Source of the DNA: Oscillatoria salina IIICB1
Lineage (GTDB): Bacteria; Cyanobacteriota; Cyanobacteriia; Cyanobacteriales; SIO1D9
Assembly: GCF_020144665.1 (NCBI RefSeq)
Contig: NZ_JAAHBQ010000049.1
Location: forward strand, 1-48,252
Direction of reading: 5' to 3'
Length of the DNA stretch: 48,252 nt
Under the pieces are notes generated by a model. It searched no databases. It was not told where the DNA came from and saw nothing but the letters and a program-made list of their open reading frames with translations. Below, one piece after another: positions 16,681 through 43,011 of this stretch (positions within the stretch are counted from its first letter, which is position 1; each line of letters begins with the position of its first letter). The position numbers and the translations under genes are program-made.

Positions 16681-16704
16681 TGTAGTGCGATTGTCTCGCC
16701 CGCT
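16681..16704. repeat. TGTAGTGC-type repeat fragment in the cas operon
   Basis: TGTAGTGCGATTGTCTCGCC and the next four bases (CGCT) in the 85-bp gap between the Csx19-like and TIGR03986-like genes resemble part of the MITE-like element at 12109-12132. This suggests an old insertion inside the operon. Confidence 0.5.
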
Positions 16705-16738
16705 AATTTTGCTCATTTAGGCTATTTATTAACATCAA

Positions 16739-17164: not shown

Positions 17165-17175
17165 GCTGCTACTCC

Positions 17176-18108: not shown

Positions 18109-18155
18109 AATTGTAATTTTTGGTGAAGGTAAATCAAAATTGACAATTGCTATTG

Positions 18156-19007: not shown

Positions 19008-19022
19008 AGTTAATTTCCTCTC

Positions 19023-20159: not shown

Positions 20160-20197
20160 AACTTTATCCTCTTGTGAATTTTCAATATTTTGTGAAC

Positions 20198-21828: not shown

Positions 21829-21862
21829 TTCTCACCTTTTAACAAAGTGAATTATTTAGCAT

Positions 21863-22606: not shown

Positions 22607-24912
22607 CGGTTTGTTTCCTCAGCAACGAGTTTTTCTGTTTCTTTTTCAACAAAAGGATAAATATCTACTAATTCTTGCCAAATTGTCTCATAAGTTGAAG
22701 GTTGCTTTTCTTGATTTAATTCTTGAGAATTTTCTTTTTCTGGGACAGGTTCGAGAAACATCCAAGGTGCTAAATTACCGTTGTTTTTGGGGTCTTTTGG
22801 TGGACACCAAGCTTGCTCAAATTTTTCTTCTAATAGTATTTGCTGATTTTTCTGTAATCGAACGCGAAAATAGCGATAGTTGAGGATTGCTGTATGTTTA
22901 CCGTGGGCGAGTAAACTACGAATCTGATATAATTGCGATCGCGGAAATTTTGACTCTTGCAATGCTTTGGCTGTTTCGATAACTCCACCCAGTTCGTGTA
23001 AAGTATAAGGTGTCGCGTAAAGTTTCAGTCTCGGTTTATCAGGTTGCTTTTTGATTAAGCCTTCTTCTCGGAAGCTTTCTACATTAGAAGAAATCATCGT
23101 AACAGATTTTAAAGTGAGGAAATCAACCGTACCACCGTAGTAATCGTAATTCTTCAGTAATTTGGCTTTTTTCTTGGCTGATTTAAGCAACTTACTAGTT
23201 AAGTTTTCGGCATAATAAACTGGTGTATCATAAGCAATAGTTAAAACTCCGCTAGACATACTCAATTGACAATGAGAATCTGTAGCTAAATCTGGTCGAT
23301 AGCGATGAGTTTTCTTTAAATTAGTTGATGTATCTTCAGAGAGATTATATCTTTGTTTGCTGATTAAAATTCGTTCAAATTCTTCGCCGATAGTTTTGGC
23401 AATATCCAAAGCTTGATTCGCTGGGACAATTAGCAAAACGTCATCGCCGCCGATAGTAATAATCTCAAACGGATGTACCCAAGTTCCCTCGCGATTTCGC
23501 GATTCTAACTTTCTTAAATTATTCAATTTATGGGGTTGGAGATGTTCCCGCAATGCGTAATAAACTGATTTTTCAGTTGCTTCAAAAATATCGTGGCTAA
23601 ACTGTTGATACTCTTCTGGAGTTTTAATCTTTTGGATATAGCCGCCCATATTATTACCGTCGGCGTAGATAAAGCTAATATAACCGTTACTTGCATTCCC
23701 AATTTCTTCTAAACTTAAAGCCTCACTCACCTCATTTTGTGCCACATTTCTGTAGTAATTATGAGGACTTTCTCTCAAAAAGCGAGTAAATTTGTTCGCC
23801 CAACTTTCCACTTCTCCTGGTTCCCAAGTAAAAGGACTTTGGCGATACCAATTTTGTTCTTTATCTTGCTTCGCTCTTTGTCCCATAATCCTTTTCCGGG
23901 CTAAATTCTCTGAAAATTCCGGTTCTCCTGGTAACTTGGTTTTCACAACTGCCGAAGCCCGGTCTCCTTCTTCTCGAATTAGATAAGGATGTGTTTCTAA
24001 CATCGGTGGATAGCGACGGCTGGGTCGATTTTCTGTATCGTTTCCACTGCGTCTCTGATTAAACTGCGTCGCTAATTTACCCGCTAATTCATTAAAGCTT
24101 TTGCGGTTAAAAAATTTGGTAACTATGTCGGTTTCTTTTTCTACCTTGCCAAAATAAGCTTCTACAAGCGGATGCTGATATTCCCGGCGATACCAATCTA
24201 ACCACAGTGTTTTTGGCAGAGGATTTTGTAGCAATCCAAAGCGAAATTCTAGCAAGCGAAAAGTATCTCCAACCGCACAACTATTTGCCGTAATTGTTTC
24301 AGTAGTGTAGCGTTTTTCGATCGCATTAGCTAAGTCATTAACATAAGCTGCCGGACAAAAGGCGAGAATATTTCCTCCGGTTGAGTAGATAATTAATTCG
24401 GGAATTAAAGCTGTCCTTAACTGAGGAAATTCTTCATCCAACCAGTCTCTCAGTCGCTGATAATCTGCTTGTAAACCTTGACTCAATTCTGATTCTGGTT
24501 CTTCTTGGCAAATTTTTGGTTCTTGGTTAAAAAAAGCAGGCAAATCAATTAAATTAATTCGATCTAGTAAGGCAGAAGCGCCACGAATGTCTGGTAATTT
24601 AGCAGAAGTAAAGACATAACCTTTAATTTTGGTTGCGCCGCCGTAAACTAAACCAATAGGAGTCGTTTGCTGAGATAATTCTGGGTAGTCGTTCTCAATC
24701 TCACTAACTTGGTTGGGATAGTAATCTGAAGGAATTGCTTGTAATTTTTGGATTTGAGAAACAAGCTGGCTAACTTCGAGAACTTCTTTTCCTTGGGCGA
24801 GATTTTGCCGCATTTTTGCTAACGTCTCTAAACTCTGCTGCGGTTCCCGCTTCTCTCCCCAAGCGAGACACCAAGCTAAGGCGATGGTCATGTTTTTGCG
24901 TACTTCTGACAT
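22603..24912 (-). CDS. cas10: Cas10, type III CRISPR cyclase subunit
   Basis: A 769-residue large subunit. The cyclase motif GGDD is encoded at 23440-23451 (ITIGGDDVLLIVP), and the first palm carries YISFIYADGNNMGGYIQ, so cyclic oligoadenylate synthesis should be intact. I see no HD nuclease motif in the N-terminal region, as is common in type III-D, so DNA cutting by this subunit is doubtful. The first palm-like part (TPIGLVYGGATKIKGYVFTS) and a helical C-terminal domain (about 700-800) complete it. The open frame reaches back to a TTG at 25011; I choose ATG 24912 (MSEVRKN), preceded by GGTGA, because the extra 33 residues look random. It is coupled to the downstream RAMP gene. Confidence 0.9.
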   Translation of the reverse strand: MSEVRKNMTIALAWCLAWGEKREPQQSLETLAKMRQNLAQGKEVLEVSQLVSQIQKLQAIPSDYYPNQVSEIENDYPELSQQTTPIGLVYGGATKIKGYVFTSAKLPDIRGASALLDRINLIDLPAFFNQEPKICQEEPESELSQGLQADYQRLRDWLDEEFPQLRTALIPELIIYSTGGNILAFCPAAYVNDLANAIEKRYTTETITANSCAVGDTFRLLEFRFGLLQNPLPKTLWLDWYRREYQHPLVEAYFGKVEKETDIVTKFFNRKSFNELAGKLATQFNQRRSGNDTENRPSRRYPPMLETHPYLIREEGDRASAVVKTKLPGEPEFSENLARKRIMGQRAKQDKEQNWYRQSPFTWEPGEVESWANKFTRFLRESPHNYYRNVAQNEVSEALSLEEIGNASNGYISFIYADGNNMGGYIQKIKTPEEYQQFSHDIFEATEKSVYYALREHLQPHKLNNLRKLESRNREGTWVHPFEIITIGGDDVLLIVPANQALDIAKTIGEEFERILISKQRYNLSEDTSTNLKKTHRYRPDLATDSHCQLSMSSGVLTIAYDTPVYYAENLTSKLLKSAKKKAKLLKNYDYYGGTVDFLTLKSVTMISSNVESFREEGLIKKQPDKPRLKLYATPYTLHELGGVIETAKALQESKFPRSQLYQIRSLLAHGKHTAILNYRYFRVRLQKNQQILLEEKFEQAWCPPKDPKNNGNLAPWMFLEPVPEKENSQELNQEKQPSTYETIWQELVDIYPFVEKETEKLVAEETNR

Positions 24913-25016
24913 ATCTGAGTCACCAGCGATCGTTTTGTTTTCTATTATAACTGTTGCGTAGAAAGGGGGTTTTCTATAAACGATCGGGAAAGGAAATCTT
25001 CCTCGACACAATTATT

Positions 25017-25943
25017 TCAACTGCCGACTAGCAAACCAGACACTCTTTCTAACAACTCTTTTGGTAACGTTTTCGTTTCACCGCAAATCCAAGGACCCGC
25101 AGTCATCTTTAAATATGGTTTCTCTTGAGTGACCATTTTCACATCCGTGAGAATACTGAAAATTTCTGCGATCGGGAAAAGATTTCCACGGTCATGACAA
25201 AATTCATGCCATTTTTCAATTTCCTCAGCTTGGGAACTAATAATCAAATAATGGCTACAAGCCTCCAGTAATGGCAGTTTTTCCGGTTGTACCATTCCGC
25301 CCACATCGACGATAACCAAAGCCTTCTGTCGCCGCAATTCCAGGATAGCTTGGGCGTGATAGGGAAAAAAGCGACTACTTAACTGTCCCTTATTCGCCGC
25401 CTTAAATCGTTCAATCTCCTCCTCCGTGGCGTCTTCCCCCAACTCTAAAACATAATTTCCTTCGCCATCCCAGTGGGCGCGTTGGAGATATATGTTAGGA
25501 TTTTTTAACAATAAAGCTTGAAATAAAGCATGGGAAAGAACACTTTTACCACTATTTGGCGGACCGACTATCAGCAACGCCGGACACAAATCTTCGGTAG
25601 AATGTTGTCGTCCGTTGCTGACAGTTATCGGAATCACTTGACCAACTTTCAAGTCGCGAGAGTGAGTTGCCGTCACTACCGCCCCCAGTCTGGGGTCATA
25701 ACAGGCGATCCAACTGGTGGGATGACATTCGTGAGTTAAGTAAGAATACAACCAAATTGGAGCGCGACCAGAAATGACTATCCCCCCGCGAAAGTTGATA
25801 TTTGTTGGTAATTCTAAGTTGCTGATGTCTTCTGGGTCAATAATTCGGTCGGGTGCGGTTAGTTCGATAGTGAGAACTTGGTAGGAAAGATTTTCCCAGA
25901 TTTGCGGTTCGCTGAGGTTTAGTTTTAAGGCGGGGTTGTTCAT
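25017..25943 (-). CDS. csx3: Csx3-ATPase fusion, putative cyclic oligoadenylate ring nuclease
   Basis: A 308-residue protein and the first gene of the cas operon. Residues 1-110 form a Csx3 domain: GGIVISGRAPIWLYSYLTHE then CYDPRLGAVVTATHS. His74, Asp83, Arg85 and His94 are candidate active-site residues and sit at the spacings I recall for the archaeal Csx3/Crn3 enzyme, which degrades cA4. Residues about 118-308 are a P-loop ATPase with Walker A GPPNSGKS (127-134) and the strand LVIVDVGGM as a likely Walker B. Csx3 fused to a P-loop ATPase is known in cyanobacteria; what the ATPase does is unclear. It probably limits the Cas10 signal. Confidence 0.8.
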   Translation of the reverse strand: MNNPALKLNLSEPQIWENLSYQVLTIELTAPDRIIDPEDISNLELPTNINFRGGIVISGRAPIWLYSYLTHECHPTSWIACYDPRLGAVVTATHSRDLKVGQVIPITVSNGRQHSTEDLCPALLIVGPPNSGKSVLSHALFQALLLKNPNIYLQRAHWDGEGNYVLELGEDATEEEIERFKAANKGQLSSRFFPYHAQAILELRRQKALVIVDVGGMVQPEKLPLLEACSHYLIISSQAEEIEKWHEFCHDRGNLFPIAEIFSILTDVKMVTQEKPYLKMTAGPWICGETKTLPKELLERVSGLLVGS

Positions 25944-26173: not shown

Positions 26174-27274
26174 TTAAATCTCATCCCAACCGCTAATCCC
26201 TGACGACATAACATAACTCGTAACTGTTGCCTCAAAGAAATTCGATTTAGTATTACCTTCTTTTTTGGTATCAGAAAAACGTTCTAAATGAGTATAAGGG
26301 CTTTTCTGATATTTTGCTTCTTTGTACAACGAGTCTAAGCCAATTGCCCGCAACCTAATATTTGCAAGATACTTAGTGTATTGCTCGGTACTTTGTTCTG
26401 TAATTCCCAAAATATTATTGCCAACGATATGATTTGTCCATTGGCATTCGTGATTCACTGCTTGGTCAAACATTTCGTAAATCGTGTCTACAGAATGAGG
26501 AAATACTTGCATCGCTTCTGTCACCACTCGTTGATACAAGCGAACGTGAGAAAGTTCATCTCGATTAATCAGTTTAAACACATCTGCACTTCCAGGCATC
26601 AACATTCGAGAAGCCAAATTGTAGAAGAAAATAAAGCCGTTATAAAAATACATTCCTTCTAGTAAATAATCGGCAATGAGAGCAATAAAATAGTTTTCCT
26701 GTGTCGGATTAGAAACATATTTTTGATACAGTTCTGCTACGAATTGACAGCGACTAAACAGTACTTTATCGGTTCGCCAAAAGTCATAAACTGCATGACG
26801 TTGTTCGGGGGGAATAATACTTTCAATTAAGTATTGGTAACTATGATTGTGCATGGCTTCTTGGGAAATTTGCTCGGACATACACAAGCTAATTTCTGGG
26901 GCTGTGATGCTGCTTTTGATGTGAGGAATATTGCAAGTTTGTACTGAGTCTAAAAAGGTTAAATAACTCAAAATTCCGTTATAAGCATAGCGTTCTTGTG
27001 GTGTCAGATTCCAGTAATCAACAACATCTTGAGTTACATCTAGTTTTTGTGGAATCCAAAACTGTTCTCTCATTTGCATATACAATCCCACAGCCCAAGT
27101 ATAACGAACGTCGTTGAGTTGCATGAGGTTAGTTGTTTCGCCAAACCACATGGTTCGATGAGCGATATCATCGTTACCTTGGGGATTAAAAATAGGGCTG
27201 ATGGGCATTGTCGCGGTTTGAACGACTAGATTGGAAATTGGGGAAAAGGAAGTTATATTTGACAATTCTTTCAT
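26174..27274 (-). CDS. nrdB: Class I ribonucleotide reductase, small (radical) subunit
   Basis: A 366-residue ferritin-like subunit that holds the diiron-tyrosyl radical used by NrdA to make deoxyribonucleotides. Numbered from ATG 27274, candidate metal ligands are Asp109 (LDSVQ), Glu139 and His142 (QEAMHNHSY), Glu206 (LLEGMYF), Glu240 and His243 (RDELSHVR), with Tyr146 as the radical tyrosine four residues after the first histidine. I prefer 27274 (MKELSNITSF) to an upstream start because the longer frame would overlap nrdA. It lies 14 bp downstream of nrdA and forms an operon with it. Confidence 0.93.
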   Translation of the reverse strand: MKELSNITSFSPISNLVVQTATMPISPIFNPQGNDDIAHRTMWFGETTNLMQLNDVRYTWAVGLYMQMREQFWIPQKLDVTQDVVDYWNLTPQERYAYNGILSYLTFLDSVQTCNIPHIKSSITAPEISLCMSEQISQEAMHNHSYQYLIESIIPPEQRHAVYDFWRTDKVLFSRCQFVAELYQKYVSNPTQENYFIALIADYLLEGMYFYNGFIFFYNLASRMLMPGSADVFKLINRDELSHVRLYQRVVTEAMQVFPHSVDTIYEMFDQAVNHECQWTNHIVGNNILGITEQSTEQYTKYLANIRLRAIGLDSLYKEAKYQKSPYTHLERFSDTKKEGNTKSNFFEATVTSYVMSSGISGWDEI

Positions 27275-27288
27275 GATTATGTAACGAT

Positions 27289-29583
27289 TTAATTTGCGCA
27301 AGAGGCACATTCAGAGGTTGTGTCTTTGTAGCCATCTTTTTGGACGGTTCGTATGTAGTAAATGGCTTTACACCCTGATTCCCAAGCTAACATTAAAGTC
27401 TCAAAAATATCTTTAGCTTTAAGGCTGCGTTCGGGTTCGTTGGGGAAATAAACACCTGCGTTCAGGTTGAAAATTAATTCCATCGAAATTCCGGTATCAA
27501 TCCAACGTTGTATAGTCGAGATCGCTTTGATAACAATATCTTGAGATAGGGTTTTGTTTTCGGTATAATACCAGAAACGATCGCTAATAAATGGTGGGGC
27601 AATGGGAACTGTTCCTTTAGCCCATTTATCGTAGAAAAAACGACTATAAACTGGCAATACTGATGCCGTACAACCTTGAACGAGTGATGAGGATGTGTTA
27701 GGCGCGATCGCTGTAATGTGACTATTACGAATACCATAGAGTTGAATATCTTGGGATAACTGTAACCAGCGCTCGCTTTTCGTTGCATTCTCACAAAACC
27801 ATTCAACTGGTTTTGCGCCAATTAAATAACCTTTACTCCATTCGCTACCTGCAAATGCTGGATAAGATCCTCTTTCTTTAGCGAGTTCCATTGAAGCATG
27901 AGTACAGTAATAACCGATGTCCTCAAATAAGGCATTAATTTCACTCAGATTAGTATAAGAAAAACGACGTTTGGCTAACCAATCAGCTAATCCCATTGCA
28001 CCTACGCCAATAGTACGATAGCGATCGTTATGATTAGCGCTTTCTACAAAAGGTGGGGTGGTAATTTCAATGGCGTTATCGAGAAGGCGAACGGCAAGTT
28101 GACAAATATATGGTAATTCTTCAGACTCGATGTTAGCTAAATTTAACGAATCGAGATTACAAGTGTGGGCGAATTTTCCAGGAGTGACATTTGACCATGA
28201 TTCGCAACAGAGATTAACTCCTGGGATATAACCTTCGTGTTGGTTGGGATTTGCTTTATTAATTGTGTCTTTGAATGCTAGGTAAGGCATCCCAGTTTCA
28301 ACTTGCGATCGCATAATATTTTTAAACAATTCCCGTGCTGAAACTTGTTTGTAAAGGGTTAACTTGGGATTGTTAATGTCTAATTGCGGGTTAGCGTCGT
28401 TATCGAGATTAGTTTCAAGATAACCATATTGTTCTTCAAATTGACTACCCCAAAGTTCGGCAAGCTCAATACCAAATTTGATTCGTACTTCATAGGGGTC
28501 AAATAAAGTCCAATCTCGATTATCGCGAACCCGACGCATAAACTCGTCAGTGACAACTAATTGTGGAAAAATATCGTAAGCTTTGCGTCGTTGGTCGCCA
28601 TTTTCTGTTTGTATTTCTAAAAATTCCGGAACATCAAGATGCCAACTGTCTAAACTTACAGTGACAGCTCCAGCGCGACGACCTCCTTGATTGACGGCGA
28701 TCGCGGTATCGTTAAGTAATTTCACCCAAGGTATAACTCCTCCAGATGCACAACTCTTACCCATCACCCAACTACCCGCAGCGCGAATTCGAGAAACATT
28801 AACGCCTACACCTCCACCATTTTTTGAAATTCGGGCGGTGTTAGTGAGTTCGCGATAAATAGATTCTAGATTGTCTTCCATTGCTGTGATAAAGCAAGAA
28901 GAAAGCGATCCTTGAGGGACTCGCAAATTAGCCAGAATAGGGGTTGCAAGAGAAATTTTACGTTGGGCGATCGCTTCATAAAACTTTCTTGCCCAAAATA
29001 GACGATTTTCAGGCTTTTCTGGGATTGCTAAAAGTAACGCACAAGTTAACAAAGCTTCTTGAGGTAGTTCGTTGTCAAGAAGATAGCGCTTCGAGAGTAG
29101 TACCGCACCAGCATAATCGTAATCTAAATCCCAATCTGGGTTAATCCAAGTTCCTGCTTCTGTTAGTTCAGCTTTACTGTAGGTAAAAATCTGTCGATCG
29201 TATCGATATGAAGTGACTTTGTTTTGTACGGTGCGAAAATAATTACTGTATTGATATCCGCGTGCTACACTGGCATCTTTCCACAAACTCCAAATGTGTA
29301 GACGCCCGGCAACATACCGCCAATCTGGCTCTTCAGGAGAACACATTTGTAAAGCGCAGTCAATAAGATTTTCTTGAATCTCACGAGTAGTTACCCCATT
29401 GCGAAGTCGAGTTTTTAGCGTCGATTCAAGAGCGATCGCGTGGGCTTCTAATCCCTCACAAGCCCAATGGACAACCTTTCTAATTTTGCTAACATCTAAA
29501 GGCGCGGCTTGTCCGTCCCGTCGAATAACGTGAATATTTTGGCGATTAATTACACTTTCGGGCTGGGGGATCGTTTGTGGCAT
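27289..29583 (-). CDS. nrdA: Class I ribonucleotide reductase, large (catalytic) subunit
   Basis: A 764-residue catalytic subunit that reduces ribonucleoside diphosphates. It has an N-terminal ATP-cone (about 16-105, IHVIRRDGQAAPLDVSKIRK), the redox cysteine in SLSSCFITAMEDN, the radical-site segment NLCCESWSN with its Cys and Glu, the partner cysteine in HTCNLDSLNL, and a C-terminal shuttle pair in TSECASCAN. The ATP-cone suggests dATP feedback control. It is the first gene of nrdA-nrdB. Its 5' leader contains two hairpins (29608-29651). The nrdAB pair splits the CRISPR locus into an effector side and an array/adaptation side. Confidence 0.95.
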   Translation of the reverse strand: MPQTIPQPESVINRQNIHVIRRDGQAAPLDVSKIRKVVHWACEGLEAHAIALESTLKTRLRNGVTTREIQENLIDCALQMCSPEEPDWRYVAGRLHIWSLWKDASVARGYQYSNYFRTVQNKVTSYRYDRQIFTYSKAELTEAGTWINPDWDLDYDYAGAVLLSKRYLLDNELPQEALLTCALLLAIPEKPENRLFWARKFYEAIAQRKISLATPILANLRVPQGSLSSCFITAMEDNLESIYRELTNTARISKNGGGVGVNVSRIRAAGSWVMGKSCASGGVIPWVKLLNDTAIAVNQGGRRAGAVTVSLDSWHLDVPEFLEIQTENGDQRRKAYDIFPQLVVTDEFMRRVRDNRDWTLFDPYEVRIKFGIELAELWGSQFEEQYGYLETNLDNDANPQLDINNPKLTLYKQVSARELFKNIMRSQVETGMPYLAFKDTINKANPNQHEGYIPGVNLCCESWSNVTPGKFAHTCNLDSLNLANIESEELPYICQLAVRLLDNAIEITTPPFVESANHNDRYRTIGVGAMGLADWLAKRRFSYTNLSEINALFEDIGYYCTHASMELAKERGSYPAFAGSEWSKGYLIGAKPVEWFCENATKSERWLQLSQDIQLYGIRNSHITAIAPNTSSSLVQGCTASVLPVYSRFFYDKWAKGTVPIAPPFISDRFWYYTENKTLSQDIVIKAISTIQRWIDTGISMELIFNLNAGVYFPNEPERSLKAKDIFETLMLAWESGCKAIYYIRTVQKDGYKDTTSECASCAN

Positions 29584-29905: not shown

Positions 29906-32900
29906 TTATATTACCCCTTGCGGGGATTTGGTTATCTAAAACGTTTGGTGAGGTGAGTCATGAGGTCAGCCTTATGGTTCTGGTTTCCGTCCCCTTGCGG
30001 GGATTTGGTTATCTAAAACATTGGACCATTAATACTAGAATACTTAGTTTCTATAAAAGATATTAGTTTCCGTCCCCTTGCGGGGATTTGGTTATCTAAA
30101 ACCTCCTGACTGAGCCAGAAGTAGACATTGAATATTGGGAGTTTCCGTCCCCTTGCGGGGATTTGGTTATCTAAAACGACAAGACCTACCCCATCTCCAT
30201 CAGAGTCACCTTCATTGATCGTTTCCGTCCCCTTGCGGGGATTTGGTTATCTAAAACAGAGCTAATACATCAGCATCAGACTTACTCGCTAAATCGTTTC
30301 CGTCCCCTTGCGGGGATTTGGTTATCTAAAACAAGGAAAAGGTGAAGGAGGAAACTCCAGAACCAGACCCAGTTTCCGTCCCCTTGCGGGGATTTGGTTA
30401 TCTAAAACGTTAAAGAAGAAATCATTTTGAAAGAGAAAGGATGGAAAACGTACGTTTCCGTCCCCTTGCGGGGATTTGGTTATCTAAAACAAGCAAAGAA
30501 TTAGTTAGAAGGCAGGCGATCGCTGGTTTCCGTCCCCTTGCGGGGATTTGGTTATCTAAAACTTTCGGTAGGATTATGATTAAGTGCATTAATTAAACCG
30601 TTTCCGTCCCCTTGCGGGGATTTGGTTATCTAAAACGAGGGAGCTACTCCTCTTCACGTCGTCCCTGCTGGGACGAATTTAAACGCAAGGTTTCCGTCCC
30701 CTTGCGGGGATTTGGTTATCTAAAACGTTATATACAGTTTAGGAAGAGTAATATGAAGAGGAACAAAAAAGTTTCCGTCCCCTTGCGGGGATTTGGTTAT
30801 CTAAAACGTAGTTTGATTTATTCCCCTTTTTCTAAACGTTAGATTGTATATCCCTTGTTTCCGTCCCCTTGCGGGGATTTGGTTATCTAAAACATTCATA
30901 GAAGTATCAAGGTATACAACTCCCTTAATCGCATTGTTTCCGTCCCCTTGCGGGGATTTGGTTATCTAAAACAACATTTTTTCCCGATTGACGAAACTGA
31001 ATGGAACAAATTAGTTTCCGTCCCCTTGCGGGGATTTGGTTATCTAAAACAATACCAACTCCTTCGGCGGTCTATGGATCTAGTATTTACAAGCGTAGTT
31101 TCCGTCCCCTTGCGGGGATTTGGTTATCTAAAACGTAGTTTGATTTATTCCCCTTTTTCTAAACGTTAGATTGTATATCCCTTGTTTCCGTCCCCTTGCG
31201 GGGATTTGGTTATCTAAAACATTCATAGAAGTATCAAGGTATACAACTCCCTTAATCGCATTGTTTCCGTCCCCTTGCGGGGATTTGGTTATCTAAAACA
31301 TAGCGGTATCCGTTAAAAGATCGACAATTTGTGCAACCGTTTCCGTCCCCTTGCGGGGATTTGGTTATCTAAAACAAGCAAGAGCAGTCCTACTCCTCAC
31401 TAGAGGAGTACTGTAGTTTCCGTCCCCTTGCGGGGATTTGGTTATCTAAAACTCTTCTTTGGGGAAGAAGAAATCCTTTTGGGCAAGAGCCCATTCTTTA
31501 GCAGTTTCCGTCCCCTTGCGGGGATTTGGTTATCTAAAACGATGGAGGAGAAAATAAAAGCTCCCGAAGGGGAGTACGGTGTTTCCGTCCCCTTGCGGGG
31601 ATTTGGTTATCTAAAACTCGGCCGTAGCCGACGAGGTTCGCAGTATGTGCAGAGGTCAATGGATTGTTTCCGTCCCCTTGCGGGGATTTGGTTATCTAAA
31701 ACGGTCATCTATTAGCTGTCTCTAGTTATGTTATGGATGTTTCCGTCCCCTTGCGGGGATTTGGTTATCTAAAACTACTTGTATTGAGTCTCATTGAAGA
31801 GTTTGTTAGACTCTCCGTTTCCGTCCCCTTGCGGGGATTTGGTTATCTAAAACACTTCATGACACTCTCTGCTTTACCATTAATGTCAAAGGGTTTCCGT
31901 CCCCTTGCGGGGATTTGGTTATCTAAAACCTTGAATCACTCTCTAACCATTGTTCTAATATTTCAAAGTTTGATTGTTTCCGTCCCCTTGCGGGGATTTG
32001 GTTATCTAAAACCTTGGTTGGATATGTAATCAAAAGGCACTAGTGTCATATTCGTTTCCGTCCCCTTGCGGGGATTTGGTTATCTAAAACCACAAACGCA
32101 AACAACGTTTGGGAAAGAATGAGCGATACATTGTTTCCGTCCCCTTGCGGGGATTTGGTTATCTAAAACCATCGATTATTGCTGCTTCTTCTTTGGCATT
32201 CTCCGGATTCACTAGTTTCCGTCCCCTTGCGGGGATTTGGTTATCTAAAACCGGTGTTGAGGAAATGGCCAAAACATCCTTGGAACAAGGAGAGTTTCCG
32301 TCCCCTTGCGGGGATTTGGTTATCTAAAACGAGGTAACACTGCCTCTAAACATCGAGGTTAGTCTGCCAGAGGAAGTTTCCGTCCCCTTGCGGGGATTTG
32401 GTTATCTAAAACTTAAGATGGATATAAATTTAGCAAAAGCTTTCTGGGAAGGTTTCCGTCCCCTTGCGGGGATTTGGTTATCTAAAACTTATCTACATAT
32501 AGTGTGTAACCAAGAGAGTAACACTAGTTTCCGTCCCCTTGCGGGGATTTGGTTATCTAAAACTCTGTACGTGCAGGAATGGCTCACTCAGCGTAATGCT
32601 GTTTCCGTCCCCTTGCGGGGATTTGGTTATCTAAAACTGTATTATACTAAGGTATAAAGCAACTAGGAGGTTTAATGTTTCCGTCCCCTTGCGGGGATTT
32701 GGTTATCTAAAACAGTCAATACAAAGTATTTGTTGTTGACAATGATTGCTCTCCATTGTTTCCGTCCCCTTGCGGGGATTTGGTTATCTAAAACGGTCTG
32801 AAGAGGCCAGCAAGGACTTTGAGCTAATAAAATGGTTTCCGTCCCCTTGCGGGGATTTGGTTATCTAAAACAGAAGGGAACCTTTACGGGAACCTGGATG

Positions 32901-35900
32901 GACTGGTTGAAAAAGCGTTTCCGTCCCCTTGCGGGGATTTGGTTATCTAAAACTTAGAATAAGATAATGAATGGGAGATTGATTCTCCCGTTTCCGTCCC
33001 CTTGCGGGGATTTGGTTATCTAAAACAAGTAGTGGAGTGGTCAGATGGCCCCTCTATAGACGTAGAGGTTTCCGTCCCCTTGCGGGGATTTGGTTATCTA
33101 AAACACTCATAATAATTTATCCATTTACTATATAAAGGTTTTATTGTTTCCGTCCCCTTGCGGGGATTTGGTTATCTAAAACAACTCAAAAATAACGGAA
33201 GAAGAGATTTTGCTTTTAGAGCGTTTCCGTCCCCTTGCGGGGATTTGGTTATCTAAAACAACTTAGGCTATTGCGGTGCGGCTATTTGCGACAAATCAAA
33301 AAGTTTCCGTCCCCTTGCGGGGATTTGGTTATCTAAAACGGTAGAAATCGAGCAGAGGCACGAAATTTCAAAAGAACAAAATTGTTTCCGTCCCCTTGCG
33401 GGGATTTGGTTATCTAAAACTTAGAGCTGGATAACTTAATTAAAGAGTTAAAGGCTCTTGGATTGTTTCCGTCCCCTTGCGGGGATTTGGTTATCTAAAA
33501 CGCATTGAATCCAACTATCTCACAAAAGTTCTCAAATCATTAGAGCAGAGAGCGTTTCCGTCCCCTTGCGGGGATTTGGTTATCTAAAACTAACAAGTCT
33601 TGGTCAGAGACAGAGATGTCAGTTTCACCTAAGTTTCCGTCCCCTTGCGGGGATTTGGTTATCTAAAACAAGATGAATCATTAGAATACACTTCTATGGT
33701 TATCAATGAGTTTCCGTCCCCTTGCGGGGATTTGGTTATCTAAAACATCTGGGTATGGTAACAGATAATCTGACTATGCAGCAGATGTGTTTCCGTCCCC
33801 TTGCGGGGATTTGGTTATCTAAAACTTGAAGAAAGAGGATGAGGTTCAGTACATTACCCAAACAGGGTTGTTTCCGTCCCCTTGCGGGGATTTGGTTATC
33901 TAAAACGCTTTCTTTTTTTTCTTTTTAGCAGCGTGATACTCCACTGCTGGTTTCCGTCCCCTTGCGGGGATTTGGTTATCTAAAACTTTTAAATAAAGAG
34001 GTTTATTATGATTGACTATAGTGTTGAGAGTGGTTTCCGTCCCCTTGCGGGGATTTGGTTATCTAAAACTGGGGGTATTCTTAGACAAGGAAGGAAATGA
34101 AACCTTCGAGGTGTTTCCGTCCCCTTGCGGGGATTTGGTTATCTAAAACAAGACTGGACCAAAATCCACAGTTGAATTAACAAACGAAGATGGTTTCCGT
34201 CCCCTTGCGGGGATTTGGTTATCTAAAACACTCTTCATCTAACTCCATTCCCTCTAGTAGGGAATCTATTTCACTGTTTCCGTCCCCTTGCGGGGATTTG
34301 GTTATCTAAAACAAGATAGACATATTAAAGGTTCAACCTTAAAAGCTTTATGTTTCCGTCCCCTTGCGGGGATTTGGTTATCTAAAACACAGCTTTGACC
34401 AGGGGCAACCCTGGTATCCCATCTACGAAGTTTCCGTCCCCTTGCGGGGATTTGGTTATCTAAAACTTAACTAAAACATTGCGCGGGAAGTCCCTAATCT
34501 CAGCGAAGAGTTTCCGTCCCCTTGCGGGGATTTGGTTATCTAAAACACTATACTCACCCCCTTGCAGGAGTGGTAGGCTCCTTTAAGTTTCCGTCCCCTT
34601 GCGGGGATTTGGTTATCTAAAACGTAATTTCAGGAATCTCTCCCTCTGTAGAGTATTTGATAAGTTTCCGTCCCCTTGCGGGGATTTGGTTATCTAAAAC
34701 GCGTGCAGAACAAGCAGAAAAAGCAGAAAAGCCCGCTCCACGTTTCCGTCCCCTTGCGGGGATTTGGTTATCTAAAACTAAGAAGACAATCTATCCGTTT
34801 CAATTAAACCATTTCAATGTTTCCGTCCCCTTGCGGGGATTTGGTTATCTAAAACGTTAATAGAAGACTGGGGGGATACTATCCCTGATTGGCTTCGTTT
34901 CCGTCCCCTTGCGGGGATTTGGTTATCTAAAACGTCTAATATCTTTTTTCTTTCTCTTGAAAACAACAACTTCAGGTTTCCGTCCCCTTGCGGGGATTTG
35001 GTTATCTAAAACAGAAACTACGGGAATGGTGATTGGGACAAACGTATCTTGGTGTTTCCGTCCCCTTGCGGGGATTTGGTTATCTAAAACGAGGAATAGA
35101 ACTAAACCTAATCTACGAGATAAATAACGAGGTTTCCGTCCCCTTGCGGGGATTTGGTTATCTAAAACGTAAACAACGGAAACGGAACCAAAGTAGAAGC
35201 AAAAGTTTCCGTCCCCTTGCGGGGATTTGGTTATCTAAAACAAACTGGAAACAGTGGGGATCAATTTGAAATTAGCAAAAGCTTTGTTTCCGTCCCCTTG
35301 CGGGGATTTGGTTATCTAAAACAATATCTAAACCCTACCAAAAGAGGTAGGAGAAACTATGTTTCCGTCCCCTTGCGGGGATTTGGTTATCTAAAACGTG
35401 TAACTAATTTAAAAGAGTTAGAAGATGTTTATAAATGTTTCCGTCCCCTTGCGGGGATTTGGTTATCTAAAACCGCTGCTAGAGATGTAGGTAGAAAAGA
35501 CTTCAGAAACGCTGTTTCCGTCCCCTTGCGGGGATTTGGTTATCTAAAACTTGGGAAACCCTCACTCGTCGGAACAGTTTTGACCAGGGGCGTTTCCGTC
35601 CCCTTGCGGGGATTTGGTTATCTAAAACGTAGTTGATTGTTTGAGTAGCCATGTTGGATTATCTCCATGTTTCCGTCCCCTTGCGGGGATTTGGTTATCT
35701 AAAACTAGAGGGTTCAAATCCCTCCTATTGGTATTTCAATAAAATCGTTTCCGTCCCCTTGCGGGGATTTGGTTATCTAAAACACTCAGTAGATTCCATA
35801 ACATTTCAAACAAAAGGGGGTTTCCGTCCCCTTGCGGGGATTTGGTTATCTAAAACTTTTGCTTTTAGAGCTTAAGTATGCGCCTATCCCAGGAATGTTT

Positions 35901-38900
35901 CCGTCCCCTTGCGGGGATTTGGTTATCTAAAACGGCAAGAATTGTTAAACTTAATTGCCATAGTTAACAATGAACCATGTTTCCGTCCCCTTGCGGGGAT
36001 TTGGTTATCTAAAACGGATGGAGCCATAAAACAAACAGGAGGATATAAAATGACTGAGTTTCCGTCCCCTTGCGGGGATTTGGTTATCTAAAACTCAGGT
36101 GCAGAGTTGGCCTAACCAAGTACAGATACAAAAGGTTTCCGTCCCCTTGCGGGGATTTGGTTATCTAAAACAACAGAGTCTTGCGCAGGCAAAAGAAAGC
36201 GCAAGACGCATTAGCAGTTTCCGTCCCCTTGCGGGGATTTGGTTATCTAAAACGAAAATAACTAAGAATATTAGGGAGATTGATTCTTCCTATGTTTCCG
36301 TCCCCTTGCGGGGATTTGGTTATCTAAAACAGTCTTTTTTCTTTCTATTGTAAACATCAATTAGTAGAAAGGTTTCCGTCCCCTTGCGGGGATTTGGTTA
36401 TCTAAAACTCATGTAGAGGATTGCCTCAAGTCGTTGTTTACGAGAGAGGTTTCCGTCCCCTTGCGGGGATTTGGTTATCTAAAACGGAAGAAGTAGAGAT
36501 AGCCATTAGATGTGTTTCCTTTCAATTGGTTTCCGTCCCCTTGCGGGGATTTGGTTATCTAAAACACGGAATATCCAAAATGGGAAGGCGAAGAAGAAAC
36601 GGTGTTTCCGTCCCCTTGCGGGGATTTGGTTATCTAAAACCCTTGATTGTTGTTGTTGTTGTTGTTGCGTGTGGGTCTGCCTCGTTTCCGTCCCCTTGCG
36701 GGGATTTGGTTATCTAAAACGAAAACTTTTAGTAAATATCTTGTTGAAAAACAGGGGTTTCCGTCCCCTTGCGGGGATTTGGTTATCTAAAACAAAACAT
36801 AAATTAGTAGAAAGGAAACAAGAATGAACTTACCAACGTTTCCGTCCCCTTGCGGGGATTTGGTTATCTAAAACGCGAAGACTATGGAGGCAGTTTTGAA
36901 GGCGCTTGAAAAGTTTCCGTCCCCTTGCGGGGATTTGGTTATCTAAAACTACGACAGCACACCCCATAAGGGGTATCCAATATGTGAACATGTTTCCGTC
37001 CCCTTGCGGGGATTTGGTTATCTAAAACTCGGATTATCTCCCATAAGAATTTCAGATTTACCATCTAGTTTCCGTCCCCTTGCGGGGATTTGGTTATCTA
37101 AAACGTGGCTGCTACTGTTATCCAATACATTAAGCAATTCATGCTTCGTTTCCGTCCCCTTGCGGGGATTTGGTTATCTAAAACGTAATAGGGAGAATTA
37201 ATCTCCCTTATTTTTAGCCTACAGGTTTCCGTCCCCTTGCGGGGATTTGGTTATCTAAAACCTGAGGATAACTCCTCAATCGATTTAGGGTCAGTAGTTT
37301 CCGTCCCCTTGCGGGGATTTGGTTATCTAAAACTCTTTTATAGCTTCATTAGAAGAAGAGGAAGATGTTATCTTTGTTTCCGTCCCCTTGCGGGGATTTG
37401 GTTATCTAAAACACGCAAGTATGCTGGTATTCTAGCTGATATCAAGTCGCTGGAAGTTTCCGTCCCCTTGCGGGGATTTGGTTATCTAAAACAACAACAC
37501 CCACGCAGTCTTTACACAAACCAGTCTAATAACGTTTCCGTCCCCTTGCGGGGATTTGGTTATCTAAAACCGTAAATCCGCAGAAGTAATGATTAGCATG
37601 TTTGAACAAGGCAAGGTTTCCGTCCCCTTGCGGGGATTTGGTTATCTAAAACAGAGTCGATGAAAAGACCTACAAGATTCTTGAGAAGAAAGGTAGTTTC
37701 CGTCCCCTTGCGGGGATTTGGTTATCTAAAACTAATTGAGTACAATACTGGTATAAGAAAATAGAACATCTTAGTTTCCGTCCCCTTGCGGGGATTTGGT
37801 TATCTAAAACTGAGTGGTTGAGAGAACTGCTTAAGGCAGGTGTAGTTATCTAGTTTCCGTCCCCTTGCGGGGATTTGGTTATCTAAAACCCTCCTCTAGA
37901 GGAGGTCCCAGATAATAAAAATAGGGAGAGATTAATGTTTCCGTCCCCTTGCGGGGATTTGGTTATCTAAAACTATGCAAACGTTCATGTAGGTACATGT
38001 AGGTAATAGTAAGTTTCCGTCCCCTTGCGGGGATTTGGTTATCTAAAACCACTCCTTCCACTCCTTCCATTCAACTTTTCATCCAACTTTTCGTTTCCGT
38101 CCCCTTGCGGGGATTTGGTTATCTAAAACTTTAATTCTCTAAATAAATGTGGATATTCTACTTTTATTTCTCTGTTTCCGTCCCCTTGCGGGGATTTGGT
38201 TATCTAAAACCAAGAATTATCTAAGGTAATGGATGAAGGGGTTGAAGTATTGAAGTTTCCGTCCCCTTGCGGGGATTTGGTTATCTAAAACTAAGAAATT
38301 AGTTGCTGGTCGAAAGGGTACTGCCTTGTTTCCGTCCCCTTGCGGGGATTTGGTTATCTAAAACGACTCAAGCGGAACTTTTGGGAAACAATCACTCGTC
38401 GGAACGTTTCCGTCCCCTTGCGGGGATTTGGTTATCTAAAACTAGGATAAATATAATAAGATTTATTATCAAGATTATATTTACTAAGTTTCCGTCCCCT
38501 TGCGGGGATTTGGTTATCTAAAACCCGTGATGCAGACCTCTTCATGGCATTGTTCAATATGGTTTCCGTCCCCTTGCGGGGATTTGGTTATCTAAAACAG
38601 ATACCTACCAACTGCTTATTCCCAAGTGAGAGTCATACTCTCACGTTTCCGTCCCCTTGCGGGGATTTGGTTATCTAAAACAGAATATAACAATACATAT
38701 ACCTTATTAGACTATGCGTTTCCGTCCCCTTGCGGGGATTTGGTTATCTAAAACATTCAATCTATCCTCGCTGGCGGTAATGGCAACCGTTGGCCAGAGT
38801 TTCCGTCCCCTTGCGGGGATTTGGTTATCTAAAACCCAGCACCAAGCTGGTGACCCTTGATTGGGATTTCCCTAGTTTCCGTCCCCTTGCGGGGATTTGG

Positions 38901-40890
38901 TTATCTAAAACAATGCAACTGGTTTAAAAGTAATTGACCTAAAGCTAGAAACCGGTTTCCGTCCCCTTGCGGGGATTTGGTTATCTAAAACCTTCTCTGA
39001 TGTGGTACATATATACTGGGAAACACAAAAAGAAGAGTTTCCGTCCCCTTGCGGGGATTTGGTTATCTAAAACTTCTTCTATTTGTTCTTCAATAGATAA
39101 TTCCTTTATAGCTAAGTTTCCGTCCCCTTGCGGGGATTTGGTTATCTAAAACCATGTGGGAGGAATGGGAAACCAACCAAGAGTATTGGTTGGAAGGTTT
39201 CCGTCCCCTTGCGGGGATTTGGTTATCTAAAACGCGGCCGAGGCATACACGAAAGAGACCGAAAAGGATACAGGGATGGAGTTTCCGTCCCCTTGCGGGG
39301 ATTTGGTTATCTAAAACGTTGAAAGAAACATACTCTAACCTCCGGGAGTATGTTGTTTCCGTCCCCTTGCGGGGATTTGGTTATCTAAAACACCTTCTGT
39401 ACTGCTATGTAGTAATGAGGTATCAAAAGGTAAGTTTCCGTCCCCTTGCGGGGATTTGGTTATCTAAAACGAAAACAGGAGGGGGTGCTCACGCAGTACT
39501 TCTAACGTTTCCGTCCCCTTGCGGGGATTTGGTTATCTAAAACGTTGATGAAGAAAAACCATTTATATTAACAAAAGAGTATCTGTTTCCGTCCCCTTGC
39601 GGGGATTTGGTTATCTAAAACACCCAGATGGTGATTCTGATGGGGATAAGGTTGAGATTGAGATTGAGGTTTCCGTCCCCTTGCGGGGATTTGGTTATCT
39701 AAAACGAATGGAGAAAATTAATCGATTGCTACGGGACAGGAGACGTTTCCGTCCCCTTGCGGGGATTTGGTTATCTAAAACAAGGTATTGCCTTTGCCCT
39801 CAGACAAACACACAACTACAACGTTTCCGTCCCCTTGCGGGGATTTGGTTATCTAAAACACAAGTTAATAGACTGGTACGGGTCCGGTGATTGGGAACGA
39901 AGGGGTTTCCGTCCCCTTGCGGGGATTTGGTTATCTAAAACAGACACAAGTGAGTTAAAGTGGACCCTAGATGAAAAGGATTGTTTCCGTCCCCTTGCGG
40001 GGATTTGGTTATCTAAAACGAAGCTGGGAATGGATACCATTTAGCATCCATCATCAGTTTAATGATACCCTCGTTTCCGTCCCCTTGCGGGGATTTGGTT
40101 ATCTAAAACAAATTGGTGAGGTTAAGTTTAGGAAATCGAGAGATATTGTTTCCGTCCCCTTGCGGGGATTTGGTTATCTAAAACTGAAAAGCAACTCAAG
40201 GTTGCTAAGGTTAACCTTGACTTAAGTTTCCGTCCCCTTGCGGGGATTTGGTTATCTAAAACTCCTGAAAACGGTCAGGATGATTGGCAGGCTTACTCCC
40301 AATGTTTCCGTCCCCTTGCGGGGATTTGGTTATCTAAAACGGGGAAGAGATTGACCAACACAAACTTTCGTGGGGTAAGGGGTGTTTCCGTCCCCTTGCG
40401 GGGATTTGGTTATCTAAAACACGTTCTAGTAAAGATAGACAATTACTACCTAGGATGGGTTTCCGTCCCCTTGCGGGGATTTGGTTATCTAAAACAACAT
40501 GAAGCAGCCGTAGGGTATCACAAGGCTAAAAAGAAAGGTTTCCGTCCCCTTGCGGGGATTTGGTTATCTAAAACTATTATATGTATAGGTATACCCCCTA
40601 CCCCTCCCCTAGGCAAGTTTCCGTCCCCTTGCGGGGATTTGGTTATCTAAAACCAACAGACGAAATGATGGCTGCCATGATGCAGAAAATGCAGGCTGAG
40701 TTTCCGTCCCCTTGCGGGGATTTGGTTATCTAAAACAAAGAATTGCTACACAGGACTACTTTAGCGTATAAAGCCGTTTCCGTCCCCTTGCGGGGATTTG
40801 GTTATCTAAAACATGGTGGATTAATTATGAATCTAACTTTGAGATATTAGAAGGTTTCCGTCCCCTTGCGGGGATTTGGTTATCTAAAAC
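29906..40890 (-). CRISPR. Large CRISPR array, about 140 repeats of 37 bp
   Basis: Near-identical 37-bp repeats begin GTTTCCGT, contain the stem CCCC-TTGC-GGGG and end ATCTAAAAC on the plus strand. I counted about 140 repeats and 139 spacers by hand. Spacers are mostly 36-46 nt, with a longest of 53 nt at 30637-30689. The transcribed strand is most likely minus: there the repeat ends in the hairpin followed by ACGGAAAC, which matches the 8-nt tag of other cyanobacterial Cas6-processed repeats (ACTGAAAC type). The repeat at 29906-29942 is degenerate in its first bases, as expected for the leader-distal end, and cas1-cas2 lie at the other end. Short open frames through the array are repeat translations, not genes. 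Confidence 0.98.
30808..31262. repeat. Duplicated two-spacer block inside the array
   Basis: The spacers at 30808-30856 (49 nt) and 30894-30935 (42 nt) recur identically and in the same order at 31135-31183 and 31221-31262. The offset is 327 bp, four repeat units. This indicates recombination between repeats rather than fresh acquisition. Confidence 0.95.
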
Positions 40891-41152
40891 CCTACTGTTG
40901 TGGAAACATTATTGTATGCAGTTTTCAAGGTACGTTTCCACGATCGCGCGGAGAAATTACTTAACATAACTTTACTAGCTTGGCAATTGAGAATATGAAT
41001 TGCGAAAAACTAGCTCATTTAATAATCTAGTCGAATTTTGCGAAAAAGTCAAGGGGCAATTTACTTTTTATCTCAAAGTTCCTCGCAAAAGCTCTGTCTT
41101 GCTGATTACTGCTCGTTGCGACAAAGCCAAGTCTTTTTTTACATTCTGTTAC
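40891..41152 (-). promoter_or_regulatory. CRISPR leader region
   Basis: A/T-rich, non-coding 262 bp between the first repeat (40854-40890) and the cas2 terminator. Orientation makes it the leader, holding the array promoter and the site of new spacer insertion. GTGGAAAC (40900-40907) and GTTTCCAC (40934-40941) form an inverted repeat 10 bp from the first repeat and echo the GGAAAC end of the repeat itself. A short frame at 41000-41182 has no family look. I could not fix a -10/-35 pair. Confidence 0.65.
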
Positions 41153-41177
41153 AAAAAAAAGCTGGGTATTTCCCAGC
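41153..41177 (-). terminator. Rho-independent terminator downstream of cas2
   Basis: On the minus strand GCTGGGA and its partner CCCAGC form a stem over 41161-41177, followed directly by eight T (41153-41160 on the plus strand as A). It lies 10 bp after the cas2 stop, so the cas1-cas2 transcript ends before the leader and the array must have its own promoter. Confidence 0.88.
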
Positions 41178-41187
41178 CGTGATGAGG

Positions 41188-41564: not shown

Positions 41565-42575
41565 TTATTTGAGAAGAAAGGCTTCGTAATCTAACGTTGA
41601 TTCAATGAAACAGCGTCCTAAGCTACGTGCTTGTTCGAGTATGATTTGACTGTAAGTTAAACGCCGCTTTTGGGGTGGGTAAAGGACGGTTTGACGTAGT
41701 TGTTGTTCGAGTTTGGCGAGGAAGAGTTTTTTGGCGACTAAGCCTAGCCAAATACCTGTGCCGTCGGGTGAGGGTTCAAAATCGAGAGGATCTAAGATAT
41801 CAGCCTCGATGATGGAGATTACGGCTCGATCGACGATCGCGGGACGAAATTCTTCCATTAAGTCTAATACCAAGTTGGGTCGATAAGGTTCGACGGCGTG
41901 GAAAAAGCCTAAATACGGATCGAGTCCGGCTTGGATGCTGGCGGCGAATATTCGTGCGAGTAAAACGCCGTAACCCCAACTGAGTAAGGCGTTGATGGGA
42001 TCGAGGGGTGGGCGGCGATTGCGTCCGGAAAAGTTCCATTTCGGGGGGAAGTAGTGACGCAAGGCTTGATAGTAGGTGCGGGCGCAAATGCCTTCTATGC
42101 CCATCATTTCGGCTCGATTGAGGGGGGTGGAACAATCGTGGAGTCGCAGCATATATGCGCCGATACAGTCGATGGCTTCGCTGAGTTGGGTAATTCTGCC
42201 TTGGGTGGCGCGGTTGCGTCGCTGAAGGAGCGATCGCTGATTGCGAATTTTGCCTAAAACTAATTTTTGGGCTAATGCCATGCCGAAGGTGGTGTCGAGA
42301 ATGCGGTATTGGGCGATGCGAATGGTAGGATTGGTTTGAAAGTTTCCCTGAAGTCGTCCGCGAAAACGACCGTCTTGCCGGAGAAAGATGGTTTCGATGC
42401 CGCGATCGAGCAGTTGGGCGATCGCGTTGTCGGTAAGCTGTACTCCGGGAAGCGCTACTACCAGTTCGACTTCTGCAATCCGACAAGTATGAGTAGTTTC
42501 TTTTTTGCCAATTAAAAAAGAATGGTTGCGATAACGTACTACGGTTCCTGGTTCGGTTAAGTACAAGGTAGTCAC
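41565..42575 (-). CDS. cas1: CRISPR integrase Cas1
   Basis: A 336-residue full-length Cas1 starting at GTG 42575. Likely metal-binding active-site residues are Glu161 (MMGIEGICART), His226 (LGFFHAVEP) and Glu241 (LVLDLMEEFRP). The N-terminal beta domain (TTLYLTEPGTVVRYRNHSFL) and helical C-terminal domain are complete. No reverse transcriptase or Cas4 domain is fused, and none lies nearby. With Cas2 it integrates new spacers at the leader end of the array to the left. The effector operon lies about 15 kb away across nrdAB and the array. Confidence 0.95.
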   Translation of the reverse strand: MTTLYLTEPGTVVRYRNHSFLIGKKETTHTCRIAEVELVVALPGVQLTDNAIAQLLDRGIETIFLRQDGRFRGRLQGNFQTNPTIRIAQYRILDTTFGMALAQKLVLGKIRNQRSLLQRRNRATQGRITQLSEAIDCIGAYMLRLHDCSTPLNRAEMMGIEGICARTYYQALRHYFPPKWNFSGRNRRPPLDPINALLSWGYGVLLARIFAASIQAGLDPYLGFFHAVEPYRPNLVLDLMEEFRPAIVDRAVISIIEADILDPLDFEPSPDGTGIWLGLVAKKLFLAKLEQQLRQTVLYPPQKRRLTYSQIILEQARSLGRCFIESTLDYEAFLLK

Positions 42576-42681: not shown

Positions 42682-43011
42682 ATGATGCCACTTTCTGTAG
42701 CTAAACAGCTTGTACGCTATCGCAATTTGTTGATTGCTTTGGTGAATGCGGGAATTACTTGGATTCTCTTGATTATCGCTCCTTTGGGATTGTTTACGGT
42801 GATTGTTTGCACGGCTGGGGTTTTTCTCAGTAGTCTGGTTTTGGGAACGATCGGCGATTTGGCTGTGTTTTCTTTATTAAAACGTAGTGGTTGGCAAGTT
42901 ACAGGATCGCGGTGGGATGGAGAATCTGTTGCTGAAGGTTTTGATTCGTTGGTTTCAGAAAGCGAGATCCGCTTTAGTAGTGAAAGACGGCGACAGTTAC
43001 CGGAAGATTAA
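42682..43011 (+). CDS. Small membrane protein divergent from cas1, possibly Csx18
   Basis: A 109-residue protein with two hydrophobic helices (LLIALVNAGITWILLIIAPL and GLFTVIVCTAGVFLSSLVL) and a soluble charged tail (about 65-109, RSGWQVTGSRWDGESVAEGF). It is transcribed away from cas1, with 106 bp between the starts. Csx18, as I recall it, is a small cyanobacterial membrane protein found near cas genes with a similar NxGIT...IAPLG stretch, so this may be a relative; I could not verify that. The ATG 42682 is followed directly by a second ATG. A membrane partner beside cas1 could also be unrelated to CRISPR. Confidence 0.5.
   Translation: MMPLSVAKQLVRYRNLLIALVNAGITWILLIIAPLGLFTVIVCTAGVFLSSLVLGTIGDLAVFSLLKRSGWQVTGSRWDGESVAEGFDSLVSESEIRFSSERRRQLPED

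Follow-up and report, generated by a model that had tools for sequence, protein, structure and literature searches.

A partial coding-strand bias, probably due to selection, among the spacers of a type III-D-linked CRISPR array in Oscillatoria salina

Introduction

Type III CRISPR (clustered regularly interspaced short palindromic repeats) complexes are described as acting solely where the CRISPR RNA (crRNA) pairs with a transcript. By mapping spacers to their targets, Vink et al. (2021; PMC8482600) report that type III spacers fall on the coding strand in 65% of cases on average, and type III spacers are in that account the ones with the highest share lacking a known target. Here we analyse a long array in the cyanobacterium Oscillatoria salina IIICB1 (assembly GCF_020144665.1, contig NZ_JAAHBQ010000049.1; the 48,252 nt stretch analysed is called the window), which lies beside its own cas1-cas2 genes and is separated by nrdAB from a type III-D operon. 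The general coding-strand rule is already published, and the window array mainly adds one instance to it. Both the spacers of Vink et al. (2021) and those of the window are mostly of the mRNA-pairing orientation, about 75% here against the average of 65% there, but strand was there taken from mapped targets and is here read from the codon signal inside spacers that have no matched targets.

For the type III system of Thermus thermophilus, Artamonova et al. (2020; PMC7515739) report no acquisition bias without selection and a strong one after phage selection. That system and the window share a Cas1-Cas2 without reverse transcriptase (RT), although the Thermus bias is very strong and concerns one phage, whereas that of the window is 3:1 in a natural long array. 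Arthrospira platensis carries RT-lacking III-D arrays and RT-Cas1 III-B arrays in one cyanobacterium (Silas et al., 2017; PMC5513706). Its spacers, like those of the O. salina genome, are almost all without a known source and its RT-linked pool is distinct (here by a G+C content of 0.49-0.50 against 0.39); unlike A. platensis, O. salina also has I-D arrays, which provide an internal control. In the RT-Cas1 III-B system of Marinomonas mediterranea the crRNA is reported to need to be antisense to the transcript, while the orientation of acquisition is loosely controlled (Silas et al., 2017, eLife; PMC5576922); the need for antisense crRNA is common to both systems, although the Marinomonas Cas1 is an RT fusion and that of the window is not.

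We consider it probable that the window array is a III-D memory array with its own RT-free Cas1-Cas2, that about three-quarters of its crRNAs are antisense to coding transcripts, and that this bias comes from selection. In the literature searched we found no paper that uses the codon signal within unmatched spacers to infer strand, and within that literature the target-free strand test and the comparison of three array classes in one genome are new.

Results

Coding strand of the spacers

The array has 140 repeats, 139 of them exact and one degenerate (Table 1), and 139 spacers of 35-53 nt when the one before position 29983 is included; 137 are distinct. When the minus strand is read, the 3' end of the repeat is a hairpin followed by ACGGAAAC, and a second array of the same genome has CCCCGCAAGGGGATGGAAAC at the matching end of its repeat. 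This reading is further supported by the degenerate repeat at the low-coordinate end and by cas2 and cas1, both on the minus strand, past the high-coordinate end. At 24 related loci, all 27 arrays that could be oriented by repeat motif read away from cas1-cas2, so that the motif and the side on which cas1-cas2 lies agree. The crRNAs are most likely transcribed from the minus strand. The array also contains a perfect duplication of 204 nt (30770-30973 equals 31097-31300), in which two spacers and their repeats are copied.

Strand was scored with a codon-frequency model whose training set was the open reading frames (ORFs) 120 codons or longer from stretches of four cyanophages (Nostoc N1, Anabaena A-4L, Nodularia kac65v151 and Planktothrix PaV-LD). 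The model assigns the correct strand to 78-86% of held-out phage 41-mers, and it recovered synthetic mixtures of 0.5, 0.75 and 1.0 as 0.50, 0.76 and 0.99. In the window array the plus strand is fitted as the coding strand for a fraction of 0.745 (0.645-0.83) of the spacers, a value which presumes that every spacer is gene-derived; 98 of 137 favour plus, with a log-likelihood gain of 10.6 over a fraction of 0.5. Most later counts begin at the first exact repeat and omit the spacer ahead of it, and of the 136 that are then left 97 favour plus (sign test, P = 7e-7). Each of four models trained with one phage left out gives 95-97 of 136, and the observed mean was never reached in 100,000 trials of random orientation flips. 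The coding-strand bias of the array is genuine but partial, approximately 3:1, with about one quarter of the spacers reversed. An initial annotation of this DNA had proposed that the crRNAs are antisense to mRNA, and according to the codon model this holds for about three-quarters of the spacers and fails for about a quarter.

Counts of open frames were rejected as a strand test by themselves: a frame is present on plus in 129 and on minus in 126 of the 137 spacers, which fails to separate the strands, and an excess on plus is visible only against the composition expectation (111 and 119).

Gene signals and reversed spacers

The initial annotation had drawn its conclusion from start-like motifs, a terminator and clear coding frames seen on the plus strand. 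The first two are indeed present there (Table 1), but that such signals by themselves reveal the strand is barely conceivable. Under a rule requiring GGAG, GAGG or AGGA to be followed by ATG at a spacing of 4-10 nt, nine of the 137 distinct spacers qualify on plus and four on minus, where shuffles that preserve composition within each spacer lead one to expect 5.3 and 2.3. The numbers become 13 and 12 when GTG and TTG are added (expectation 11.9 and 5.9), and a stricter rule of AGGAG or GGAGG with ATG leaves one on each strand. The plus-strand excess is thus at the level of chance for a purine-rich strand, and such motifs, found on both strands, do not rise above composition. Nor is the minus strand free of equivalents, although none had been seen there: an example is spacer 39318-39354, with GGAGG, 7 nt and ATG. 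A stretch in spacer 35706-35746, GAGGGTTCAAATCCCTC, resembles a tRNA T arm, judged against the T-loop consensus.

Coding frames on plus are likewise real but are not exclusive to it, since spacer 33907-33949 codes on minus; on plus, the homologous spacer 40496-40537 gives HEAAVGYHKAKKK. The array contains 11 pairs of spacers with local similarity at E ≤ 0.01, eight on the same strand and three on opposite strands, and palindromic terminator-like hairpins underlie one of the eight and two of the three. Alike translations in opposite orientations are found in the pairs beginning at 33907 and 40496, at 31930 and 40813, and at 30178 and 39622; in the second of these, spacers 31930-31975 and 40813-40853 are similar. 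Three further spacers (34389-34429, 35551-35591 and 38365-38405) overlap on the same strand in a common frame, read by eye as FWETITRRNSFDQGQPWYPIYE, and one gene has therefore been sampled repeatedly. A nine-residue pattern for this gene matched nothing in the viral contigs or the genome contigs, and the matches of tblastn in phages reached only E 1.

Other arrays of the genome

Six matches to cas1 were obtained in the genome. Two I-D loci are present, one on contig C65 (Cas10d, Cas3d, Csc1 and Csc2) and one at the start of contig C29 (Csc2, Csc1, Cas6d and Cas1d), the latter contig carrying in addition an RT-Cas1 fusion of 660 aa and Cmr (III-B) genes. Control arrays of under six spacers or of unclear repeat orientation were excluded from this comparison, and the L097 array, called twice, was counted once. 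No bias is seen in the I-D arrays of this genome, with 66 of 140 spacers in the mRNA-pairing orientation (hereafter positive) and a fraction of 0.43 (0.32-0.56). A small array of 12 repeats at L084:4199-5081, whose I-D-like repeat resembles that of C65, has 10 of 11 positive, and its addition brings the I-D pool to 76 of 151, or 0.49 (0.38-0.60). The window array differs from the I-D arrays with P = 1e-5, or 1e-4 with L084 added.

The RT-type set, pooled by repeat alone, consists of the arrays beside the RT-Cas1 and Cmr genes of C29 and the same-repeat arrays on four further contigs (L115 and L149-L152, on contigs C29, C99, C73, C113 and C34), one L151 array without clear orientation being excluded; 146 of its 221 spacers are positive, a fraction of 0.76 (0.66-0.84). 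Mean spacer G+C content is 0.49-0.50 in this set, 0.39 in the III-D array, 0.38 in the I-D arrays and about 0.41 in host stretches, and the RT-type spacers are a distinct source pool.

The spacers of the window are also purine-rich on plus in 95 cases and on minus in 40, with two equal (t = 5.6), and one could propose that phage genome organization or base composition, in the form of purine-loaded strands, produces the asymmetry without any RNA targeting. This is extremely improbable: the I-D arrays of similar G+C content in the same genome have no bias as a pool, the one 11-spacer array excepted, and the codon-frame signal still favours plus when composition is removed by shuffling (t = 4.0), as does that of the related arrays described below (t = 8.4).

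Arrays beside orthologous cas1 genes

Among 388 genomes drawn from the order, 27, including O. salina, carry an orthologous cas1 at E ≤ 1e-90. A stretch of 10-20 kb around cas1 was taken in all 26 relatives, and an array is present in 24 of them (all but L137 and L138); four short stretches of three copies (L098, L131, L132 and L140) were left out. These arrays contain 820 distinct spacers, of which 542 are positive, a fraction of 0.76 (0.71-0.79) in statistics that ignore kinship among the genomes. A search of the 388 genomes with the whole array gave matches that, among those listed, looked like CRISPR arrays, and 20 such stretches joined the control set. Of arrays with at least five spacers, 26 of 27 beside the orthologous cas1 have a positive mean; among control arrays this is so for 8 of 16, in a count that omits the arrays of L083, L084, L088, L097, L099, L103 and L115.

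Could the bias arise from reverse transcription of RNA at acquisition, carried out in trans by the RT-Cas1 of contig C29? The fusion resides on a III-B contig and the arrays that share its repeat are biased as described above. We consider this origin very unlikely, however. The Cas1 of the window array has no RT domain, either fused or adjoining, and the Cas1 family alone covers its 336 aa; the C29 protein is the sole RT-Cas1-like RT of the genome at E ≤ 1e-10. With the relatives grouped on RT identity and frame length alone, the Cas1 half of the frames being left out of account, the bias is just as strong at the 15 loci whose genomes lack an RT-Cas1-like RT (302 of 451, 0.76, 0.70-0.81). It is no stronger at six loci whose genomes have a long RT-Cas1-like frame (117 of 193, 0.70, 0.60-0.79), and three with a partial or doubtful RT give 123 of 176 (0.80, 0.70-0.88). 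The difference in G+C content between the RT-type and III-D pools also makes traffic between the arrays unlikely. The equality of bias with and without RT, both within the genome and among relatives, fits selection.

The arrays of relatives, these controls included, were typed by neighbouring genes only. Those beside I-A cas genes have 91 of 158 positive, 0.60 (0.49-0.71), in a group where L090, L094 and L095 were scanned and L091 was assigned by ORF sizes mirroring those of L090. The ACTGAAAC-repeat arrays beside other type III genes have 126 of 246, 0.55 (0.46-0.64); their neighbours are III-A in L089 and L096 and III-D-type in L092 and L102, while L093 is placed with them on a CARF protein alone.

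These arrays bear on the idea that an RT-free type III Cas1-Cas2 itself orients spacers in a transcription-aware manner at acquisition, yielding mRNA-pairing guides with no reverse transcription. If true, oriented acquisition would explain why the bias tracks the adaptation module and not the mere presence of a type III effector: arrays beside the orthologous cas1 are biased and the ACTGAAAC arrays near type III effectors are not, a repeat class that is also found beside I-A cas genes. The leader-proximal third of the window array, moreover, shows no less bias than the remainder. Yet the unbiased type I arrays fit selection equally well; type I effectors can use either spacer orientation. Spacers that form hairpins (with a DNA fold z below -2) make up 29 of 136 in the window array and 54 of 221 in the RT-type arrays, a high share beside the 12 of 140 of the I-D arrays, and type III acquisition from single-stranded DNA (ssDNA) hairpins has been reported, but the hairpin-linked preference described in that report favours the orientation without working guides (PMC9048733), and the relatives show no such enrichment (96 of 820). 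Since the RT-free Thermus system is reported to acquire from both strands absent selection (PMC7515739), we regard oriented acquisition as unlikely.

Hairpins in the spacers were also considered as a cause of the bias in their own right and dropped, being enriched neither in the relatives nor in the ACTGAAAC arrays (49 of 451) and showing no polarity in the position of the stem. Their frequency may reflect ssDNA-hairpin acquisition or the target pool.

Search for protospacers

The mapping of spacers to phage genomes that the initial annotation had proposed gave no usable match. The array was divided in two for comparison with 50,697 phage records. One part matched 57 of them (best E 0.7) and the other 20 (best E 3), all at the level of chance and none with E below 0.7; there being no convincing protospacer, the phage origin of the spacers is something we infer. 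Plasmid searches returned 11 and 8 records, with most matches spread along the array at 63-71% identity; to judge by their pattern, not checked singly, these would be repeat matches to other CRISPR arrays. The one plasmid match that was opened is to a Dolichospermum DUF4351 gene, with 17 identical bases in spacer 31930-31975 and the remainder running into the repeat. The spacer reads LEQWLESDS where the C-terminus of the protein has LEQWLESNS, and the gene lies on the minus strand, in agreement with the codon model for that spacer.

In the own genome the array matched other arrays and otherwise nothing above chance. Three degenerate peptide patterns, used in three scans of viral contigs and one of genome contigs, had no matches, and of two joined peptides used in tblastn one gave two weak matches (E 1) and the other none. 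When 29 IMG/VR viral loci and stretches of four named phages (606 kb) were compared with 1,710 pooled spacers, which exclude the own RT-type arrays L149-L152, two short partial matches were obtained (E ≤ 0.0005), with no spacer of the window array matching. The arrays of three relatives, one of them in part, had no match in the phage collection at E ≤ 0.01.

The adaptation genes and the III-D operon

The III-D operon spans 12196-25943, on the trailer side of the array and beyond nrdAB (Table 1), and contains the components of a III-D effector: Cas10, Csx10, several Cas7-like proteins, a small subunit and Csx19. A predicted cyclase motif, GGDD, is present in Cas10 alongside a CARF effector, and the only HD dipeptide of Cas10, at residue 473, is not N-terminal. 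On the other side of the array, groES-groEL follow csx18.

The initial annotation had connected the array with the III-D operon in spite of the intervening nrdAB, using the strand bias as its pointer. The connection finds support in synteny. In six of the 26 relatives (L086, L087, L101, L105, L121 and L126) an array and a III-D operon are linked directly by cas2-cas1-csx18, and no match to NrdA or NrdB was found by tblastn in the 10-20 kb stretches of any of the 26. In those six the module adjoins III-D with no nrdAB found, and the window appears to have a rearranged version of a common neighbourhood. The stretches of the other 20 relatives had no tblastn match to the window Cas10, and the orthologous Cas1-Cas2 also adjoins other operons. 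Strand bias is a poor pointer to III-D, because the RT-type arrays have it too, and the link rests on synteny more than on bias. At E ≤ 1e-10, no NrdA-like gene besides that of the nrdAB pair was found in the genome.

Table 1. Features of the window, with coordinates, strand and supporting evidence
Feature	Coordinates	Strand	Evidence or remark
cas6 with C-terminal helix-turn-helix-like extension	12196-13293	minus	
WYL regulator	13461-14906	minus	
csx21	14977-15627	minus	
cas7-like (Csm3/Cas7 III-D)	15628-16653	minus	
csx19	16739-17164	minus	
cas7-like (Csm3)	17176-18108	minus	
cas7-like (Csm3)	18156-19007	minus	
CARF-RelE effector	19023-20159	minus	PDLC01934 E 1.1e-145
csm2-like small subunit (Cas11)	20198-20659	minus	
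csx10 (Cas5 of III-D)	20617-21828	minus	E 1.3e-136
cas7-like	21863-22606	minus	
cas10, GGDD at residue 521	22603-25011	minus	
csx3-AAA (ring nuclease family)	25017-25943	minus	
nrdB and nrdA, between III-D operon and array	26174-29583	minus	
Degenerate last repeat, trailer end	29906-29942	minus	Repeat match confined to high-coordinate side; terminal degeneration, end far from cas1-cas2
CRISPR array of 139 exact repeats of 37 nt, crRNA-sense GTTTTAGATAACCAAATCCCCGCAAGGGGACGGAAAC	29983-40890	minus	
Spacer reading SNFEILEQWLESDS	31930-31975	minus	Resembles C-terminus LEQWLESNSEF of DUF4351 protein, Dolichospermum plasmid; 17 identical bases, weak
Spacer ending in AGGAGGTTTAAT	32638-32676	plus	
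Spacer coding on minus, reads AVEYHAAKKKKKK	33907-33949	minus	Homologous to plus-coding 40496-40537
Spacer with Shine-Dalgarno-like AAAGAGG...ATG	33987-34032	plus	
Spacer with tRNA T-arm-like stretch, sense	35706-35746	plus	Sequence
Spacer with AGGAGG...ATG	36016-36057	plus	
Spacer with AAAGGAAAC...ATG (AAAGGA and ATG)	36794-36837	plus	
Spacer with hairpin resembling an intrinsic terminator plus T run, GGGAGAATTAATCTCCCTTATTTTT	37185-37224	plus	
Putative leader between cas2 and first repeat	40891-41187	minus	Position; relatives' arrays run away from cas1-cas2
cas2 (predicted), 94 aa	41188-41472	minus	ORF; orthologous ORF beside cas1 in relatives
cas1, 336 aa, without RT domain	41565-42575	minus	TIGR00287 E 2.8e-91, residues 3-326
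csx18	42682-43011	plus	NF040558, 81.7 bits (cut-off 50); beside cas1 in 23 of 26 relatives

Discussion

Selection rather than reverse transcription is most likely the cause of the bias. Because type III interference needs the crRNA to pair with a transcript, mRNA-pairing spacers are the useful ones. The array would be transcribed from the minus strand, with about three-quarters of the crRNAs antisense to protein-coding transcripts of mobile elements, and these crRNAs would guide the Cas10-Csx10 complex to mRNA. Spacers would integrate in both orientations, in line with the Thermus experiment, and cells holding an mRNA-pairing spacer would survive infection. Non-functional spacers may then persist as passengers, which would explain why the bias is 3:1 and not absolute; a runs test made on the array to look for such passengers was not significant.

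Several observations weigh against this account. No convincing protospacer was found, which leaves strand and phage origin without a direct check, and the sole gene match that was opened, the weak one of spacer 31930-31975, is in the minority orientation and to a plasmid rather than a phage. The L084 array is biased in spite of its I-D-like repeat and shifts the I-D pool upwards to 0.49. Unbiased arrays also occur within the class, in G273 (L121), which adjoins III-D and has 16 of 32 and 5 of 11 positive, and in G143 (L129), with 30 of 55. The ACTGAAAC arrays beside III-D-type effectors (L092 and L102) are little biased, and an adjoining type III effector is therefore insufficient. The III-B complex of the same genome could use the crRNAs of the array. 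Finally, a gradual loss of useless spacers predicts that the distal part should be the more biased, and it is not: the distal third has a fraction of 0.65 against 0.83 for the leader-proximal third, although the correlation is not significant.

Strand use can be read from spacers without a known target, which matters given the gap in known targets of type III spacers. A single genome here contains three array classes, of which the RT-free III-D and the RT-linked III-B-type share the same degree of bias, which is absent from the I-D pool. This three-class pattern argues against an origin of the bias in reverse transcription, and the presence of the three classes side by side makes the choice between selection and acquisition directly testable.

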